DNA from: Clostridiales bacterium
Lineage (GTDB): Bacteria; Bacillota; Clostridia; Peptostreptococcales; Anaerovoracaceae
NCBI GenBank assembly: GCA_015058205.1
Contig: SVCS01000003.1
Coordinates: 1-42,034 of the forward strand
Length of the DNA stretch: 42,034 nucleotides
Direction of reading: 5' to 3'
The translations under genes and the position numbers were made by a program. Of the stretch, positions 16,328-39,443 are shown one piece after another. Under the pieces are notes generated by a model, which saw nothing but the letters and a program-made list of their open reading frames with translations, was not told where the DNA came from and ran no database searches. The stretch's first letter is position 1. Each line of letters opens with the position of its first letter.

Positions 16328-17437
16328 ATGGATCCAAGAATCAAAGAACTGGCAGATTTACTTGTTGACTATTCCTGTGATGTACAATCAGGAGAAAAAG
16401 TGCTCATCAGCTATGAAGGCGATTGCTGCAAAAACCTTGCACGCCAGCTGATCAAGAATATTTACGCAAAAGGCGGTCTCCCTTATGCGGAGATCAGAGA
16501 TGCGCAGATCACCAGAGAGATCATGTTGGAATGCACAGAAGAACAGATCAAATTCAAAGATGAAATCGATTTGGCGCAGATGAAAGGCATGCAGGCTTAT
16601 ATTGCCATCAGAGCGGGCAACAATACAGCGGAGCTGGCAGATGTTCCTTCTGAGAAGATGAACCTCTACAGCAGTCTGACAAGACCGACGATTGATTACC
16701 GTGTAAATGAGACCAAATGGGTCGTTCTCAGATATCCGAACTATTCCATGGCGCAGCTTGCAAACAGCAGTCTTGAGAAGTTTGAGGACTTCTATTTTGA
16801 TGTCTGCACCCTTGATTATAAGAAGATGAGTAAGGCGATGGATCCACTTGTCGATCTGATGAATAGAACGGATAAAGTTCACATCGAAGGACCGGGAACG
16901 GATCTTACATTTTCGATCAAAGGCATCGGCGCCGTCAAATGTGATGGATTGAGAAACATTCCTGATGGTGAAGTCTATACAGCACCTGTCAGAGAGTCCA
17001 TGAATGGCATCATCTCCTACAACACACCATCTGAAGAGCAGGGATTCACTTATGAGAATATTGTTTTTGAAGTCAAAGACGGTAAAATCGTCGATGCAAA
17101 GGCAAACGATAATAAGAGAATCAATGAGCTTCTTAACGTAGATGAAGGTGCGAGATATTTCGGAGAGTTTGCTCTCGGTGTCAACCCATATATTCTTCAT
17201 CCAATGAAAGATACACTCTTTGATGAAAAAATCTGCGGTTCCTTCCATCTGACGCCTGGCATGTGTTATGAAGATGCGCCGAACGGCAACAAGTCAGCCA
17301 ATCACTGGGATCTGGTCATGATTCAAAGACCGGAATACGGCGGCGGAAGAATCTGGTTTGATGATGTTCTCATCAGAGAAGACGGAATCTTTGTCCTGCC
17401 TGAACTAGAGGGACTGAATCCTGACAATCTGAAGTAG
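16328..17437 (+). CDS. M29-family aminopeptidase (AmpS/PepS-like)
   Basis: M29 peptidases are two-metal cytoplasmic aminopeptidases removing N-terminal residues from peptides. The protein is 369 residues, somewhat shorter than the usual 400-410. Visible family motifs are LRNIPDGEVYTAP and ESMNG (metal Glu region), then CGSFHLTPGMCYEDAPNGNKSANHWDLV (the conserved His-x-His region; quoted pieces HLTPG and NHWD) and IWFDDVLIREDG at the C-terminus. AGAGAGGAACG precedes the ATG. It follows the DapF-like gene by 33 nt and ends 8 nt before a TetR regulator, so the three may be co-transcribed. Confidence 0.9.
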   Translation: MDPRIKELADLLVDYSCDVQSGEKVLISYEGDCCKNLARQLIKNIYAKGGLPYAEIRDAQITREIMLECTEEQIKFKDEIDLAQMKGMQAYIAIRAGNNTAELADVPSEKMNLYSSLTRPTIDYRVNETKWVVLRYPNYSMAQLANSSLEKFEDFYFDVCTLDYKKMSKAMDPLVDLMNRTDKVHIEGPGTDLTFSIKGIGAVKCDGLRNIPDGEVYTAPVRESMNGIISYNTPSEEQGFTYENIVFEVKDGKIVDAKANDNKRINELLNVDEGARYFGEFALGVNPYILHPMKDTLFDEKICGSFHLTPGMCYEDAPNGNKSANHWDLVMIQRPEYGGGRIWFDDVLIREDGIFVLPELEGLNPDNLK

Positions 17438-17445
17438 GTAAGATT

Positions 17446-18006
17446 ATGGCTAATTTCACAGAACGAGCGATTGTTGAGACCCTCAACGAGATGCTGAAAA
17501 CACAAACTATCGATAAAATTACTGTGAAGGATCTCACCGATGCCTGCGGGATTTCCAGAAACACGTTTTACTATCATTTTCATGATATTTATGAAGTACT
17601 TGCCAGAAGCTTCATCGGGTATACAGACGCGATTCTGAAAGCTCATGAGAAAGATGAGTCCTGGGAAAACACACTGATCGAACTGCTCAGTTTTCTGTAT
17701 GAAAACAGGGTTGCCGTCAATCACGTCTACAAATCTGTAGACGGAGAAGCTCTTGACAGATTTCTCGATAAGGTGGTATACCATTATACAAGAAGTGTAG
17801 TGGAAGAGGAGAGCGGCAGAGGCCGCTTTAGTGAAAGGACGATTTCTCTCGCAGCGGATTTTTATAAGAATGCGCTGCTGGGCGCCGTCTTTGGCTGGAT
17901 CGAAGAGAATATGAAGGAAAGTCCGGAGTCCCTGGCGCACTTGTACAACAGTGTCTTCAGCGGGACCATCGGTAATCTTCTGACCAGCATCGAAAGAGCT
18001 TTATAA
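17446..18006 (+). CDS. TetR/AcrR family transcriptional regulator
   Basis: A 186-residue TetR-type regulator. The N-terminal helix-turn-helix is clear: KITVKDLTDACGISRNTFYYHFHDIYEVL (about residues 24-52; core SRNTFYYHF). The C-terminal ligand-binding part resembles the TetR_C group found in DhaS-like proteins. It lies immediately upstream of the MMPL transporter, separated by a 25-nt palindrome and a candidate promoter, which suggests that it represses the MMPL gene pair; that is inference. Co-transcription with the upstream aminopeptidase is likely (8-nt gap). Confidence 0.9.
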   Translation: MANFTERAIVETLNEMLKTQTIDKITVKDLTDACGISRNTFYYHFHDIYEVLARSFIGYTDAILKAHEKDESWENTLIELLSFLYENRVAVNHVYKSVDGEALDRFLDKVVYHYTRSVVEEESGRGRFSERTISLAADFYKNALLGAVFGWIEENMKESPESLAHLYNSVFSGTIGNLLTSIERAL

Positions 18007-18076
18007 ACGAGCAACCTGTATTGGAACAGGGGAATAAGGCTCAAGTCTGTGTAATTGATATTTGGGCAAATCAGTT

Positions 18077-18101
18077 AGAGTGCACAAAATTTGTGCACTC
18101 T
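18077..18101. repeat. 25-nt perfect palindrome between tetR and MMPL genes
   Basis: AGAGTGCACAAA (18077-18088), a single central A, and TTTGTGCACTCT (18090-18101). The symmetry and size fit a TetR-family operator. It is followed by GATTTTATT, so a terminator for the tetR gene is the alternative; both roles are possible. Confidence 0.85.
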
Positions 18102-18128
18102 GATTTTATTGTAAATTCAAAGGAATAT

Positions 18129-18157
18129 TTGTTTTTGTTAATATGAATCGGTATTGT
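18129..18157 (+). promoter_or_regulatory. Candidate promoter for the MMPL gene
   Basis: TTGTTT (18129-18134), 17-nt spacer, TATTGT (18152-18157). It lies 42 nt before the ATG and 28 nt downstream of the palindrome at 18077. The -10 is imperfect. Confidence 0.4.
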
Positions 18158-18198
18158 TCCAACATACATAAACTGACAATGCTTTCCGGAGGAGAAAC

Positions 18199-20316
18199 AT
18201 GCTTACGTTCGCAAGAACTGTTGTGAAAAAAAGAAAACTTATTCTGATCATAGGATTGCTGCTCCTGATTCCATCTGTGATAGGGTATTTGAATACAGGC
18301 GTGAACTACGACGTTCTGCTCTATCTCCCTGATTCGATGGAAACAGTACAGGGACAGGATATTCTCCTTGATGAATTTGACAAAGGCGGATTCGCCATGG
18401 TCATGTTCAAGGATATGACTGAGAAAGATATCAATCAATGCTGTGAAGACATTGAAAACATCGATCATGTTGACAGCGTTATCGCCTATGATACGCTTTT
18501 GGGACCGCAGGTGCCGGAGATCATTGTACCGAATGAACTGAAAGATGTGTATGAGGACGGCGATACGGAACTCATCGCCGTATTCTTCAATACGCCGACA
18601 TCCGACGTCGGTTCCATTCATGCTGTGCAGGAAATCCGAAAAGTGTGCGGCAAACAGTGTTTTGTCAGCGGCATGAGTGCCTTTGTCACAGATCTGAAGG
18701 AACTGTCAGAACATGAGGAGCCGATCTATGTAGCGATTGCTGTCATTCTTGCCACACTGCTGATGGCGCTTCTGATGGATTCTTCCTTTGTCGCCGTCGT
18801 GTTTGTGCTGGGAATCGGAATGGCGATTCTGTACAACATGGGAAGCAACTTATTCCTCGGAGAGATATCGTATATTACGAAAGCGATTGCCGCAGTTCTC
18901 CAGCTGGCTGTAACCATGGATTACTCCATCTTTCTCTGGCACAGCTATGAAGAACACAGATTTGAAATCGGTATGGATCGGGAAGAAGCAATGGCAAACG
19001 CCATTGCGAAGACACTCGTATCAGTAACCGGAAGTTCGATTACAACCATTGCAGGATTCCTTGCCCTTTGCTTTATGACATTCACACTGGGTCTGAATCT
19101 CGGTGTGGTCATGGCGAAGGGTGTGTTGCTCGGCGTTATCACAAGTGTTACCGTTCTGCCTGCGCTGATTCTCGGCTTCGAAAAACTGATCTTCAAAACC
19201 AAACATAAACCGCTGATGATCAAGTTCGATAAGCTGTCTAAAGGAATCGTCAGAAGACCTGTCATCATGGTTATCATCTTTCTGGTGCTTCTCGGACCGG
19301 CGCTCTTTGGCTATACACACACGCAGACATACTACAAACTCGATGAAGGCGTTCCGCAGAATCTGCCGTTCAATGTGGCGAACAACATGCTGCGGGATGA
19401 CTTCGGAATCAGTACACAGCATATGATCCTCGTCAATTCCGATCTTTCCCAGAAGGAAGTCGGAGAGATGATGGATGAGATCAAAAACGTAGATGGTGTC
19501 AAAGCAGTACTCGGATTACAGAGTGCCCTCGGACCATCGGTTCCTCAGGAAATACTGCCATCGGCACTGGAAGGCACCCTGGTCAGCGATCATCATCAGC
19601 TTTTGCTTGTTACCACTGAGTATGAGGTGGCAAGTGATGAAATCTATGATCAGCTTGTTCATATCAACAAAATCATCAAAAGCCACGACAAAGAAAGTCT
19701 GCTCATCGGTGAATCCGCGTGCACGAAGGATCTGATCGATGTTACGGACAGAGACTTTAAAATTGTCACAGCAGTTTCTGTAGGAGCAATCTTCCTGATC
19801 ATACTGTTCGTGCTGCAGTCCCTGTCATTGCCGTTCATCCTCGTCGCATGTATTGAACTGGCCATCTTCATCAATCTCGGCATTCCGTTCTACACAGGAA
19901 CCGTTATGTCGTTCATTGATTCCATCTGCATCAGTACCATTCAGCTTGGTGCAACGGTAGACTACGCGATACTGTTTACGAACCGGTACAAACGGGAACG
20001 GAACGGAGGACTGGATGCAGCGCAGGCAGTCATCAAAGCACATTCCAAGACAATGCCGTCGGTTTGTGTCAGCGCCATCGGGTTCTTTGCTGCCACATTC
20101 GGCGTATCCGTTTATTCTGATATTGATATCATCAGCTCCATGGTGTTCTTCATGGCCAGAGGAGCTGCGGTCAGCATGCTGGTTGTTATGTTCATGCTTC
20201 CGGCCCTGATCGTATTCTTCGATAAAATCATTATTAAGACAAGCAAGGGCTTTGAAAATGTTGAAGGCGCTTATCACAGCAGGCGCCTCGTCAGGGAAGG
20301 AGAGACAAATGAATAA
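18199..20316 (+). CDS. MMPL/RND family transporter
   Basis: A 705-residue inner membrane exporter of the MMPL group of the RND superfamily, proton-driven. It has two homologous halves, each with one leading membrane helix (about residues 12-30 and 350-370), an extracellular porter domain of about 150 residues and a bundle of five helices. The helix-4 motifs are VTMDYSIFLWHSYEEHR and ATVDYAILFTNRYKRER, the Asp-Tyr pairs involved in proton relay. GGAGGAG 5-8 nt upstream supports the start. The next gene starts inside its last codons (8-nt overlap), so the transporter and the secreted heptad-repeat protein are produced together. Substrate unknown; MMPL proteins commonly move lipids or hydrophobic compounds. 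Confidence 0.92.
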   Translation: MLTFARTVVKKRKLILIIGLLLLIPSVIGYLNTGVNYDVLLYLPDSMETVQGQDILLDEFDKGGFAMVMFKDMTEKDINQCCEDIENIDHVDSVIAYDTLLGPQVPEIIVPNELKDVYEDGDTELIAVFFNTPTSDVGSIHAVQEIRKVCGKQCFVSGMSAFVTDLKELSEHEEPIYVAIAVILATLLMALLMDSSFVAVVFVLGIGMAILYNMGSNLFLGEISYITKAIAAVLQLAVTMDYSIFLWHSYEEHRFEIGMDREEAMANAIAKTLVSVTGSSITTIAGFLALCFMTFTLGLNLGVVMAKGVLLGVITSVTVLPALILGFEKLIFKTKHKPLMIKFDKLSKGIVRRPVIMVIIFLVLLGPALFGYTHTQTYYKLDEGVPQNLPFNVANNMLRDDFGISTQHMILVNSDLSQKEVGEMMDEIKNVDGVKAVLGLQSALGPSVPQEILPSALEGTLVSDHHQLLLVTTEYEVASDEIYDQLVHINKIIKSHDKESLLIGESACTKDLIDVTDRDFKIVTAVSVGAIFLIILFVLQSLSLPFILVACIELAIFINLGIPFYTGTVMSFIDSICISTIQLGATVDYAILFTNRYKRERNGGLDAAQAVIKAHSKTMPSVCVSAIGFFAATFGVSVYSDIDIISSMVFFMARGAAVSMLVVMFMLPALIVFFDKIIIKTSKGFENVEGAYHSRRLVREGETNE

Positions 20317-22111
20317 AAAGCCTCTTAAAGAGAAAGTCATCGCGATTACAACAGCAGTGATGACAATGACAGTGATGTGTATGCCTGCTGCTGCCTTTGC
20401 TGCATCGAATGGTGTAGAAAAGGAAGAGACAGTGTATGTCGTCACCGACAATGCAGGCTCCCAGCAGGATGTCATCGTAAGTGATCATCTGATCAACAAG
20501 GATGAAGTCAAGACCATTTCTGATGAAACCACGCTGTCAGATATTGAAAATGTCAAGGGTGAAGAAACATTCAAACAGAATGGCGACGGCATCACATGGG
20601 ATGCTGAGGGAAACGGCATCTATTATCAGGGCAAGTCGTCAGATGAGATTCCGGTTTCTATGGATATCACCTACAGACTGGATGATAAAGTGGTAAGCGG
20701 TCCTCAGCTGCAGGGCAAAAGCGGTAAAGTCGAAATCAAAATCGACTATGAAAACGACGCCACATACAATGGAACGACAGTACCGTTTGTGGTCATGACC
20801 GGACTGATTGTTACTGACGATTCCTTCAAGAACATCAAGATCAGCAAGGGCAAAGTCATCGACGATGGCGAGAAACTGCTCGTCGTCGGAATGGCAGCAC
20901 CAGGCCTTGCACAGACCCTCGGCATCGGCGAATCTGATCTTGGTATCGGCAGCAGCGTCACGATTACCGGTGATGCAGAAGAGTTTGCTGTTGAAGATAT
21001 GATGACAGTCGTAACCAATGCATTCTTTGAAGATATCGATACAGACGGTATCGACATGAATTACGATGATGAAATCAATGCGCTGAATAAAGGCGCAAAG
21101 GCATTAGTGGACGGAAGTAAGCAGCTGTATGACGGTTTGACAACCATGAACGACAACATGCCGGCTTTGGAAAACGGCGTCAATACCTTGAAGAATGGCG
21201 CCGATCAGCTGAATGCAGGTACAAAAAATGCGCAGCAGGGGGCCAATCAGCTCAGTGGTGGTCTTGCACAGCTTGCGAAAGATCTGCCAACGGTTTTAAC
21301 GGATTTGACACAAAACCTGTCACAAATGAAACAGGTTGCGTCCGGTGTTGAGACAAACCTGGTCAAAATCAAGTTCGGCATTGACAGTTATATCAAAACC
21401 TTAAACGGGGTAAAAGCAAAACAGCAGAATGTAGTCGCTTATCTTACAGCTTTAAAGGCAGTAGAAGGCAATCTGACAGCTGAACAGAAAGAAAACATTA
21501 AAGATATTCTGGGATCTGATTATGATTCCAAGCTTGACACAGCATTAGCTGATGCAAAAGAAGTATATGGAACCATTGATGTCGTTGCCAATGGTAACGG
21601 AGAAGAAACGACCGGATTGGCAGGACTGTCATCTGGTTTAGGTTCAGAAGCAAACGAAGACATGGGCTCAGTAATATGGTATCAGCATCAGCTGGATCAG
21701 GGTCTTGATACGATGCTCCAGACTGTGATTGCAAAATCTTCTGAATTGAATACCGGACTGACAACGCTCACAAATGGGGCAGGTGAATTGAAAGCAGGTG
21801 AAGATGCACTTGCAACTGGCGCGCAGGCATTAGCAAATGGAATGGAATCCCTGCAGAATAAATCCGGCACATTGATCAACGGTGTCGACCAGTTAGATAA
21901 AGGATCCCTTGAACTCAGCAAAGGTATGTCAAAGCTTTACAAAGAAGGCATTAAGAAGATCGTTGATATGTACAATGATGATCTGAAGGGAACCATCGAT
22001 AATGTGGATGGAATGCTCGATGCAGGGAAAGGCTACAAAACATTTACCAAACTGCCTTCCGGCATGGATGGAAATGTCAAGTTCATCTACAAGACGGATA
22101 TTACACAGTAA
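20309..22111 (+). CDS. Secreted X-L-X-X-G heptad-repeat protein partnered with MMPL transporter
   Basis: A 600-residue exported protein: signal peptide (MNKKPLKEKVIAITTAVMTM onward, cleavage near AFA-ASNG), a beta-rich N-terminal domain (about residues 40-245), then a long helical part with repeated L-x-x-G units such as LYDGL, LKNGADQLNAG, LANGMESL and LINGVDQLDKG, as in YhgE/Pip and related heptad proteins. The last 20 residues (TKLPSGMDGNVKF) are a short ending; no C-terminal membrane anchor is present. AAGGAGAG before ATG 20309 decides the start over the track's 20252. It overlaps the MMPL stop by 8 nt. I infer an extracytoplasmic partner or scaffold for the exporter. A strong terminator follows. 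Confidence 0.8.
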   Translation: MNKKPLKEKVIAITTAVMTMTVMCMPAAAFAASNGVEKEETVYVVTDNAGSQQDVIVSDHLINKDEVKTISDETTLSDIENVKGEETFKQNGDGITWDAEGNGIYYQGKSSDEIPVSMDITYRLDDKVVSGPQLQGKSGKVEIKIDYENDATYNGTTVPFVVMTGLIVTDDSFKNIKISKGKVIDDGEKLLVVGMAAPGLAQTLGIGESDLGIGSSVTITGDAEEFAVEDMMTVVTNAFFEDIDTDGIDMNYDDEINALNKGAKALVDGSKQLYDGLTTMNDNMPALENGVNTLKNGADQLNAGTKNAQQGANQLSGGLAQLAKDLPTVLTDLTQNLSQMKQVASGVETNLVKIKFGIDSYIKTLNGVKAKQQNVVAYLTALKAVEGNLTAEQKENIKDILGSDYDSKLDTALADAKEVYGTIDVVANGNGEETTGLAGLSSGLGSEANEDMGSVIWYQHQLDQGLDTMLQTVIAKSSELNTGLTTLTNGAGELKAGEDALATGAQALANGMESLQNKSGTLINGVDQLDKGSLELSKGMSKLYKEGIKKIVDMYNDDLKGTIDNVDGMLDAGKGYKTFTKLPSGMDGNVKFIYKTDITQ

Positions 22112-22148: not shown

Positions 22149-22178
22149 AAACGGGAGATCCCAGGATCTCCCGTTTTA
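22149..22178 (+). terminator. Intrinsic terminator after the MMPL/heptad-repeat pair
   Basis: AAACGGGAGATC (22149-22160) pairs perfectly with GATCTCCCGTTT (22165-22176) around a 4-nt loop, followed by TATT. Confidence 0.9.
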
Positions 22179-35768: not shown

Positions 35769-38700
35769 ATGCTCACTAAATACAGTGTAAAAAGACCATT
35801 CACCGTTTTTGTAGGTGTCATTATCGCAATTGTTTTCGGAGGCGTTGCGCTGTACAGCATGACGCCGGATCTTATGCCGAGTATTAATGCGCCTTATTCT
35901 GTTGTTATGACGTCAGAACCAGGCGCCAGCGCAGAAGAAGTTGAAAAAGAGGTCACAGAGCCTCTGGAACAGCAGCTGGCGACCTTATCTAAACTAAACA
36001 ACATTTCATCCGTTTCAGCAGACAATGTTTCGGTGATTACCCTTGAATTCACCGATGATGTTGACATGGATTCTATGTCTATTGATATCCGTGACAAGAT
36101 TGATCAGATCGAAGGCACTCTGCCTGAAATGGCCAGCACACCAGTTGTCATTAAGATGAATATGAACATGATGCCTGTCACAGTTGCAGCCGTCGGCATG
36201 AAAGAAAAGACACCTGCGCAGGTTTCCACATTCATTAAAGATAATCTGGAAGCTGATCTCGAAGGCATAGAAGGCGTTGCCTCTGTCAGTAAAATCGGGA
36301 TGGTCGAAGAGGGAATTCAGGTTGTTCTGTCTCAAGATAAAATTGACAAGATCAACGATGATGTTTCAGCTGCCATCAGATCTCAGTTTGCAGATGGTGA
36401 AGGAAAGCTGAAAAGCGGTATCAGCAAAGCAAAAAAAGGCTCTTCACAGGTTGATAAAGGCAAGAAAACAGTAAAAAATCAGGCGAACAGTGCGACATCC
36501 AAGCTTGATTCAGCAATCAGCCAGGCACAAAAGGGCAAAGATGAGCTGGAAAACGAAAGAACAAAACTGGAAGTGCAGATCAATGAAATCACACAGCAAA
36601 TTGCTCTTCTGGAAGAGAATATCGATTTAGCACCAACCGAAGAAGCCAAAGAAGCTATGCGGCAGCAGATTGAAGATCTGACGGAAGGCAAAACATATGC
36701 TGAAGAAGCTCTTGCGCAGATCAAGGCGAAAATCTCTGCTCTGGATAAAACCATCAGCGAACTACAGAAACAGAAGGACAATATCTCATTCCAGCTGGGC
36801 ACTGCTTATTCAGATTTGGCTGCTACGCAAAGTACGATTCAGTCCACGGTTATGCAGCTTCAGAGTACTCTGTCACAAATTGAGTCTCAAAAGCAGGCTG
36901 CCATTGACAGCGCTGATATGACTGGCGTCATCACAATGGATAATGTATCAGCCATTTTGAATGCGCAGAATTTTTCTATGCCGGCAGGTTATGTCACAGA
37001 TAACGATGCTAAGATACTTGTCAGCGTAGGCGATAAGATCAAGGATACGGAAGAGCTTAACGACTTGATTCTCTTTGATATGGATATTGAAGGTCTTGCG
37101 CCAATTCGCGTCAAGGATATTGCTACTGTATCCTATGTGGCTGATGATTCTGACATCTACGCTAAGATCAATGGGGAAAATGGTGTTCTTCTCAGCTTCA
37201 CAAAACAGTCGACTTATGCAACAGCAACAGTGGCAGATAATATTGCTGAAGAATTTGAAAAACTCGAGAGTGAGAATAAAGGCCTCAAGTTCTCAACTTT
37301 GATGGACCAGGGAAGATACATCCATATTGTCATCAATTCTGTATTTCGGGATCTGCTTCTCGGTGCACTCTTTGCAATACTGATACTGCTGTTCTTCCTC
37401 AGGGATATCAGACCTACATTCATCACTGCAGTCAGTATCCCGGTCAGTGTTGTATTTGCAATTGCCTTGATGTATTTCACCGGTGTTACGATTAACATGA
37501 TTTCTCTGTCTGGACTGGCAATCGGCGTAGGAATGCTGGTAGACAACTCCATTGTAGTAATCGAGAACATATACCGGCTCAGGAGCATGGGATACAGCGC
37601 TGTACAGGCAGCCGTATCCGGAGCATCACAGGTTGCCGGCGCAATCACTGCATCAACATTGACGACCATTTGTGTATTTGTACCAATTGTGTTTATAGAT
37701 GGTCTCACAAAGGAACTCTTCATGGACCTGGCTCTAACAGTAACGTATTCGCTGGCTGCCAGCCTTGTCATCGCTCTGACATTTGTGCCTGCTGCTGCGA
37801 AGGGGCTTCTCCGAAACAAAACAGGCAAGACGATCATCTCACAAAACGGCAGAGTCGTTGCGTGGTACAAGAGATCCGCGGCCTGGGCGCTTCTGCATAA
37901 AAAGAGGCTCGTCCTTGCAGCTCTGGTTCTGTTGCTGGCATCTTCCGGACTGCTTCTGACAAGAGGATTCGAGTTTATGCCGTCCATGTCTACGTCGCAG
38001 ATATCAGCATCTATTACGATGCCGGAAGACAGTGAACTAGAAGACACAATAAGAGTCAACGACAAAATCAGCGAAGAAGTCAGAAAAATTGATGGCGTTG
38101 AATCTGTCGGAGTTATGCTTTCCTCGAATATGTCACAGATGTTTGGCATGTCTTCCAATGATGATACGGATTATGCTGAAACTACAATGTACATTGTGCT
38201 CGATGAAAGCAAAGCGGAACAGGGTAAAAAAGTCGCAAAAGTCATCGAAAAGATTTGCAAAGACAACAACTGCGAGGCGATCACATCTGTAGATATGGAT
38301 ATGACGGAGTATATGAGCGGCACTGGCGTATCCATCAAACTTTACAGTAATGACTTGGACAAGCTGAGAGTATCCGGAATGAATATTGAAGACAGACTGA
38401 GAAACGTCAAATCATTGGAGGAAGTATCAGACATCACAGAGTCAAGTACGGAAGAGGTCAAGGTTACTGTCGATAAGAATGATGCGATGAAGCATGGTCT
38501 GACGGTAGCCCAGGTATTCCAGCAGATTAATTCCAAGCTTGCAAAGGATAAAGCAGCTACGAAGCTGAACGCAGACGGTGAGAGTATCGATGTCAGAGTC
38601 GAGAACACCTCTAATGGAGAATTTACGCTTCAGGATCTGACAGACATGAAGCTTATTGCTGATAAACAAGACGGCACCAAGGATAAAGTATCACTCACGA

Positions 38701-39443
38701 ATATCGCAGTCATCAGCAGAGATGCTTCTTTAAGCCAGATCAATCATGATAATCAGCGGAGAAGTCTGAATGTGACTGCCGGTGTAAAAGATGACTACAA
38801 TATTACGAAAGTCACCTCGAACGTCAAGAAAATCATACGAGATGAAAATCTTGTGAAACCTGGCGTTGAAATTAAATACAGCGGTGAAAATGAGGAAATT
38901 ATGAAGTCCATGAAGAAGATGCTCCTCATGATGATCATAGGAATCATCCTTGTTTATCTGATCATGGTCGCACAGTTCCAGTCCCTCAGGTCACCATTCA
39001 TCATCATATTCACATTGCCGCTTGCTTTTACGGGAGGTATGCTTGCGCTTCTGATCGCCAATCAGACTCTGAGTGTCATCGCGATGATGGGCTTCGTTAT
39101 GTTGGTCGGTATCGTTGTCAACAACGGTATCGTACTGGTCGACTGTATCAATAGATTCAGACTGGAAGGCATGGATACAGACACGGCGATCATCACGGCG
39201 GGCGCGGTTAGAATGAGGCCTGTTCTCATGACGGCCGCCACGACGGTACTTGGATTGATTCCTCTTGCGCTCGGAATAGGGCAAGGTGCTGAAATGGTGC
39301 AGCCGGTCGCTATCGTCTGTATCGGAGGATTAATATATGCGACAGTAACAACACTGTTCATCATCCCGGTTATGTATAAGAAGTTCTCCCGTAAGCACAT
39401 GGAAAAAATCAAGGATGAAGAACTTGAAATAGTAAATGTCTGA
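35769..39443 (+). CDS. RND (AcrB/SwrC-type) exporter with inserted coiled coil
   Basis: A 1224-residue RND family permease, proton-driven export across the cytoplasmic membrane. The RND core is clear: MLTKYSVKRPFTVFVGVII at the start, PGASAEEVEKEVTEPLE in the first porter domain, helix-4 AIGVGMLVDNSIVVIENIYR (core GMLVDNSIVVIEN), and in the second half MLVGIVVNNGIVLVDCINR (core GIVVNNGIVLVD). Between the first porter segments, about residues 190-380, is an extra Lys/Glu/Gln-rich coiled coil (for example QIALLEENIDLAPTEEAK) not found in AcrB. No membrane-fusion adaptor or outer-membrane gene is adjacent. The insert probably projects outward and replaces an adaptor, which is inference. A GAGGGAAAGAG ribosome site precedes the ATG. 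Confidence 0.92.
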   Translation: MLTKYSVKRPFTVFVGVIIAIVFGGVALYSMTPDLMPSINAPYSVVMTSEPGASAEEVEKEVTEPLEQQLATLSKLNNISSVSADNVSVITLEFTDDVDMDSMSIDIRDKIDQIEGTLPEMASTPVVIKMNMNMMPVTVAAVGMKEKTPAQVSTFIKDNLEADLEGIEGVASVSKIGMVEEGIQVVLSQDKIDKINDDVSAAIRSQFADGEGKLKSGISKAKKGSSQVDKGKKTVKNQANSATSKLDSAISQAQKGKDELENERTKLEVQINEITQQIALLEENIDLAPTEEAKEAMRQQIEDLTEGKTYAEEALAQIKAKISALDKTISELQKQKDNISFQLGTAYSDLAATQSTIQSTVMQLQSTLSQIESQKQAAIDSADMTGVITMDNVSAILNAQNFSMPAGYVTDNDAKILVSVGDKIKDTEELNDLILFDMDIEGLAPIRVKDIATVSYVADDSDIYAKINGENGVLLSFTKQSTYATATVADNIAEEFEKLESENKGLKFSTLMDQGRYIHIVINSVFRDLLLGALFAILILLFFLRDIRPTFITAVSIPVSVVFAIALMYFTGVTINMISLSGLAIGVGMLVDNSIVVIENIYRLRSMGYSAVQAAVSGASQVAGAITASTLTTICVFVPIVFIDGLTKELFMDLALTVTYSLAASLVIALTFVPAAAKGLLRNKTGKTIISQNGRVVAWYKRSAAWALLHKKRLVLAALVLLLASSGLLLTRGFEFMPSMSTSQISASITMPEDSELEDTIRVNDKISEEVRKIDGVESVGVMLSSNMSQMFGMSSNDDTDYAETTMYIVLDESKAEQGKKVAKVIEKICKDNNCEAITSVDMDMTEYMSGTGVSIKLYSNDLDKLRVSGMNIEDRLRNVKSLEEVSDITESSTEEVKVTVDKNDAMKHGLTVAQVFQQINSKLAKDKAATKLNADGESIDVRVENTSNGEFTLQDLTDMKLIADKQDGTKDKVSLTNIAVISRDASLSQINHDNQRRSLNVTAGVKDDYNITKVTSNVKKIIRDENLVKPGVEIKYSGENEEIMKSMKKMLLMMIIGIILVYLIMVAQFQSLRSPFIIIFTLPLAFTGGMLALLIANQTLSVIAMMGFVMLVGIVVNNGIVLVDCINRFRLEGMDTDTAIITAGAVRMRPVLMTAATTVLGLIPLALGIGQGAEMVQPVAIVCIGGLIYATVTTLFIIPVMYKKFSRKHMEKIKDEELEIVNV

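Follow-up and report, generated by a model that had tools for sequence, protein, structure and literature searches.

The closest described systems to the locus studied here are the pumps of mycobacteria. In MmpL5, a coiled-coil insert of 196 aa in the second periplasmic domain is predicted to form a 13-nm tube and is needed for efflux, and the Ig-like beta domain of this system is a separate protein (PMC12501195). For Gram-positive bacteria, the roles and mechanisms of RND pumps have been described as largely unknown (PMC5417439). We analyzed a stretch of 42,034 nucleotides, referred to as the window, from a Clostridiales bacterium of the Anaerovoracaceae (GenBank assembly GCA_015058205.1, contig SVCS01000003.1, positions 1 to 42,034 of the forward strand), and compared one of its loci with these systems and with related loci in other Bacillota. 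The locus consists of a tetR gene, a 25-nt palindrome, an MMPL gene, an overlapping gene for a signal-peptide-bearing heptad-repeat protein and a strong hairpin. All of these elements were found in the sequence, in the order that had been given in an initial annotation of the window.

The first gene, tetR (17446..18006, + strand), encodes a TetR-family regulator of 186 aa, with Pfam TetR_N and TetR_C_8 matches over cut-off. The initial annotation regarded the locus as a closed unit. At the 3' side this is borne out by a terminator-like hairpin (22150..22175, + strand; AACGGGAGATCC-CA-GGATCTCCCGTT, followed by TTATT), with 12-nt arms, T-rich sequence after it, a folding energy of -25.8 kcal/mol and a z of -5.9 (flanking 56 nt folded). 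At the 5' side, however, the unit appears less closed: an M29-peptidase-like gene (16328-17437) ends 9 nt before the start of tetR, and five near relatives (L037-L040, L042) show a comparable spacing between an M29-like gene and tetR, so that tetR may be transcribed from upstream of the locus. The palindrome between tetR and mmpL (18077..18101; AGAGTGCACAAA-A-TTTGTGCACTCT) has two perfect 12-nt arms that are 1 nt apart, and nothing comparable arose in 100 shuffles of the window. Five near relatives keep it, in most cases with one mismatch in the arms, and L041 has another palindrome in its place. Considering that it also scores as a fair terminator-like hairpin for tetR, it is a candidate TetR operator, a candidate tetR terminator, or both. 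In the relatives, one arm has a G-to-A change without a matching change in the other arm, and the hairpin still folds; this one-sided change leans towards a protein-binding site. The tetR-mmpL intergenic regions of L037-L050, L056, L064 and L072 have palindromes of 20-45 nt, each lineage with its own and with differing sequences.

The second gene, mmpL (18199..20316, + strand), encodes an MMPL/RND pump of 705 aa. The protein matches PF03176 with an E-value of 2e-53 and 181.9 bits (cut-off 20.5), in two stretches that lie in both halves of the protein, and each half contains a D-Y pair (MDYSI and VDYAI). It stays under the curated cut-offs of the HAE3 model TIGR00921 (130.4 of 351.9 bits) and the ActII model TIGR00833 (183.6 of 874.7 bits). 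Its nearest solved relatives by sequence are MmpL4 and MmpL5, whose fold it matches with TM values of about 0.55-0.63 in a low-confidence AlphaFold model (mean pLDDT 49.8, seven close sequences). The two porter domains have no coiled-coil insertion: the second porter loop is about 133 aa long with alpha/beta porter elements only, and measures 125-140 aa in all 64 paired pumps.

The gene for the secreted repeat protein (20309..22111, + strand, ATG at 20309; 600 aa) is preceded by a ribosome-binding site, AAGGAG (20297..20302, + strand), within the 3' end of mmpL, and overlaps mmpL by 8 nt (ATGAATAA, 20309..20316, + strand). While the overlap is exact, the matched production that had been deduced from it is a weaker claim than was stated, as the spacing ranges from small overlaps up to +76 nt over 62 pairs and the 8-nt overlap itself is not conserved. 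The protein starts with a signal peptide (residues 1 to about 31, with cleavage near AFA-A at about residues 30-32), which is its sole hydrophobic stretch. This is followed by a conserved but undescribed N-terminal beta domain (residues about 35-245), referred to here as the N-domain, by a region with a predicted helix (253-387), tip (391-445) and second helix (451-564), and by a conserved C-terminal VKFIYKT strand (590-596). It contains 12 in-register LxxG heptad pairs, whereas 5000 shuffles gave 0.45 on average and never more than 4, and it matches TIGR03057 with 51.2 bits (cut-off 18.6) in four stretches. In the whole genome, heptads of the TIGR03057 type occur in this single open reading frame only, at three places.

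The same layout is common to diverse homologs: a signal peptide, an N-domain of about 210 residues with the motifs ETVY, IYYQG, LPV, Y.LDG and L.GKSG, heptads, a variable middle, heptads again, and a C-terminal V.F(V/I)..T strand. The total length is highly variable (about 420-1070 aa). Some homologs have lipobox-like signal peptides (e.g., L046, L050, L051 and L058), and about half or more end in an amphipathic FWQKLLxLF-like tail (33/64 by the strict pattern, others by a looser one), which is missing in the window's own clade; carriers include L052, L053, L055, L059, L061-L066, L069, L072, L077-L080, L113-L124, L128 and L129. For the N-domain, no convincing Pfam match was found, the one PDB match (E 0.38) was judged to be due to chance, and none of 21 N-domains gave similarity to MmpS in Pfam up to an E-value of 1. 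In the AlphaFold model, based on seven close sequences (mean pLDDT 53.5), two long helices are joined by a tip, with pLDDT values of about 70-80 over most of the helix length and an N-domain that is largely unresolved. The repeat protein is thus predicted to contain an antiparallel helical hairpin, of which the longer helix would measure about 20 nm at 1.5 Å per residue. Foldseek matched the hairpin model to generic antiparallel coiled coils, such as those of chemoreceptors; weak matches to Mce, SMC, ATG17 and chemoreceptor proteins were taken to reflect coiled-coil composition.

The survey that had been named beforehand as a refutation test for a link between the 2 proteins revealed conserved adjacency from both sides. 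We searched 148 genomes of the class and 300 genomes of the phylum for the repeat protein and then read the neighboring genes. In 55 of the 58 loci found via the repeat protein alone, an MMPL gene lies directly upstream on the same strand. The 3 exceptions are L136, L137 and L138. The repeat gene of L136 and an MMPL-tetR pair (L190) lie on different contigs of one genome, and in the relative L126 both are adjacent. In L137 (4075-6569) and L138, a protein with the same N-domain and a C-terminal TM helix is encoded directly after a 5-TM DUF1097 gene, and no MMPL gene is present there. Starting from the MMPL side, an intact adjoining repeat gene was found in 35 of 38 class loci of the approximately 700-aa type; among the remaining three, the repeat gene is broken in G003, there is none in G120, and the third is the second MMPL of the window's own genome, at a contig end. 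Among phylum genomes that were first found via their MMPL, 11 of 13 evaluable loci were pairs, with both failures from one genus. The second MMPL of the window's genome (G000:C40:2851-4893, L081) lies about 150 nt from the contig end, and this assembly yielded no second heptad protein, though the sister of this MMPL, L070, has a partner.

The 2 proteins are also inherited together. Over 48 loci, the distances between MMPL proteins and those between N-domains correlated with a Spearman coefficient of 0.79, which was reached in 0 of 500 permutations; for MMPL and TetR distances at the same 48 loci, the coefficient was 0.29. In each of two genomes with two pairs (L053 and L080; L060 and L155), every pump was matched to its own partner lineage. 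Judged from these sequence comparisons, the pairing of the MMPL and the repeat protein is real and old. Adjacency and co-inheritance establish a shared function, not contact.

Two further arrangements bear on what this function may be. First, five MMPLs of 1001-1094 aa, which form a separate MMPL clade (L142, L144, L145, L149 and L152), have LxxG heptads in cis, within a second porter loop of 378-545 aa. It is in this domain that MmpL5 holds its coiled coil. A natural fusion of the heptad-repeat protein to an MMPL was not found in the class and phylum samples, in which the open frames of paired pumps are below 800 aa. Second, a subclade of MMPLs of about 800 aa is nested among the heptad-paired pumps (one MMPL clade, SH-aLRT 98), and directly downstream of these, in 8 of the 11 class loci that were read and two more in the phylum, lies a gene for a secreted GLUG beta/long-coiled-coil protein that is unrelated to the repeat protein (L159-L161, L163, L164, L169, L170, L172, L191 and L193). 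The heptad partner is also present in just one (G026) of the 18 class genomes with such MMPLs. In L166 (2797-8535), a single frame of 1912 aa comprises the pump, a signal-peptide-like TM, GLUG, a coiled coil, GLUG and a C-terminal TM, and its nearest relative, L159, has the pump and the GLUG partner as separate genes. Given this exchange of a heptad protein for a GLUG protein, a beta-domain/coiled-coil partner seems to be needed by these pumps whatever its family.

Other transporters with long extracytoplasmic inserts were seen along the way. A 1202-aa MMPL from a Bacilli MAG (L043:2132-5740) has a second porter loop of 673 aa full of helical units of about 75 aa (xxFIDFI type), a single copy of which is apparently present in GLUG-paired MMPLs such as L166. 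Two FtsX/MacB-like permeases of about 1200 aa (L148:2048-5809 and L150:1674-5192), each with an ABC ATPase gene adjoining, have a first extracytoplasmic loop that contains a long coiled coil; this is the theme of a coiled-coil extension in another transporter class. Within the window, an AcrB/SwrC-like RND protein of 1224 aa (35769-39443), just before yajC- and secDF-like genes, has a coiled-coil-like stretch within the first of its parts that lie outside the cytoplasm, at about residues 200-390.

Since the genome gave no match to TolC-type (PF02321) or Omp85 (PF01103) families and contains a sortase, the host is likely a monoderm, as had been supposed in the initial annotation, and for the same reasons an extension of the pump would reach the cell wall rather than an outer membrane. 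We consider it on balance probable that the locus encodes a two-gene MmpL-type pump unit, in which the pump receives its coiled-coil extension in trans, from a dedicated extracytoplasmic partner. Gene order, co-inheritance, domain layout, the insert-free paired pump and the partner swap support this reading, and the idea, initially put forward, of an extracytoplasmic partner of the pump, here as a long coiled coil, is still the best reading of the sequences. From these data, we infer a physical complex, the position and oligomeric state of its parts, a role in transport, and regulation of the unit, as follows. The MMPL protein would act as a membrane pump that is driven by protons and whose porter domains are bare. 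The N-terminal beta domain would sit at the outer face of the membrane beside these porter domains, and in relatives a lipid anchor, a TM helix or the amphipathic C-terminal tail would often help to hold it there. From the beta domain, the long antiparallel coiled-coil hairpin would extend outwards into the cell wall, with Leu at a and Gly at d in its packing, and several copies of the repeat protein round an oligomeric pump may form or brace a coiled-coil stalk. This stalk would carry or shield an amphipathic or lipid-like substrate on its way from the outer leaflet to the wall or the outside, in the role that the coiled-coil domain and MmpS have for mycobacterial MmpL4/MmpL5, but in trans. 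The TetR regulator would control the unit in this lineage. A wider and more doubtful idea, which we put forward tentatively, is that of a class of RND pump assemblies in monoderms, in which an exported beta-domain/hairpin adaptor (of the heptad family or, independently, of the GLUG type) forms a stalk or tube into or through the peptidoglycan.

Several observations count against a pump unit completed in trans, namely the genus with split genes (L136/L190), the association with a DUF1097 gene in L137 and L138, and the seemingly partnerless L081. Other explanations of the pairing have to be weighed. The repeat protein could act as an acceptor or chaperone for the cargo, with a beta domain that receives a lipid or amphiphile handed over by the pump, and a hairpin that anchors or spaces it in the wall; there would then be no conduit, and stable binding to the pump would not be required. 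Linkage and co-inheritance fit such a role equally well, and the lipobox-like signal peptides and the many FWQKLLxLF-like tails would suit a protein of the membrane surface. The cis heptads in the second porter loop of the other MMPL clade and the GLUG fusion in L166, however, argue for a built-in part of the pump over this and the other rivals, and we regard a cargo acceptor as unlikely, albeit worth serious consideration.

The repeat protein might instead be the substrate of the pump or a surface structure, where the MMPL helps to insert into the envelope either the coiled-coil protein itself or a modification of that protein. Strict pairing and the pump-first order agree with this, as does a length that varies as it does for surface proteins. 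Yet the protein has an ordinary Sec signal peptide and thus needs no MMPL for its export, MMPLs of known function are movers of lipids or small molecules, and cis or fused forms would be hard to explain if it were a substrate, which leaves this explanation very improbable. The least probable explanation in our estimation, with a slim chance of being correct, is a signaling or envelope-stress unit, in which the coiled-coil protein senses the wall or the substrate load and gates the pump while TetR sets expression. TetR genes do adjoin most of the 64 pairs (31 upstream on the same strand, 14 upstream on the opposite strand and 3 downstream), but they come from diverging lineages that track the pump poorly, as the low Spearman coefficient given above indicates, and in 16 of the 64 loci none was found close by.

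In open-access papers, we found no earlier description of a secreted heptad or GLUG protein that partners an MMPL, though databases may hold the neighborhood unremarked. As far as sequences and models indicate, many single-membrane gut bacteria encode a small MmpL-type pump together with a secreted protein that is predicted to form a long coiled-coil rod. The strictly paired exported partner, the cis version and the unrelated replacement partner together suggest that these pumps generally require a coiled-coil structure extending beyond the membrane, even where there is no outer membrane. This provides a testable idea of how MmpL-type pumps operate in bacteria that lack an outer membrane, and a functional clue to numerous heptad-repeat and GLUG proteins that are listed as "hypothetical".

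Compared with known systems, the repeat protein shares with the YhgE/Pip phage-infection-protein family its extracytoplasmic LxxG heptads and, often, an adjoining TetR gene. The kinship with YhgE/Pip that had initially been proposed nevertheless had to be dropped: the YhgE-like proteins encountered here have about six TM helices, no MMPL neighbor and no such N-terminal domain, and the window's protein, with no Pfam or NCBIfam match to them and no six TM helices, has the LxxG repeat alone in common with them. AcrA/MacA/HlyD adaptors of tripartite RND pumps offer an analogy at the level of how the unit may work, as they too combine a beta domain with a helical hairpin (which is a prediction for the repeat protein) and are encoded beside an RND pump; unlike for these adaptors, there is no lipoyl/barrel-sandwich, HlyD or adaptor match in Pfam or NCBIfam, and no TolC-type partner in the genome. 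The cis-heptad MMPLs of Bacillota likewise unite an MMPL core with TIGR03057-like heptads, but do so in a single polypeptide of a separate clade, which lacks such an N-domain and has its heptads within the second porter loop, bounded by the TM helices on either side of that loop. Among solved structures, nearest in pump fold and sequence are mycobacterial MmpL4/MmpL5 with MmpS4/MmpS5 (PMC12501195, PMC12346298, PMC12803245); as in these, the unit includes, outside the membrane, a long antiparallel coiled coil (predicted here) as well as a small beta domain. It differs in that the pump studied here has no insert, and in that a single secreted protein, in which no similarity to MmpS was detected, combines the beta domain with the coiled coil. 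By analogy, what mycobacterial MmpL4/MmpL5 hold in one protein, pump and rod, seems to be divided here between two genes.
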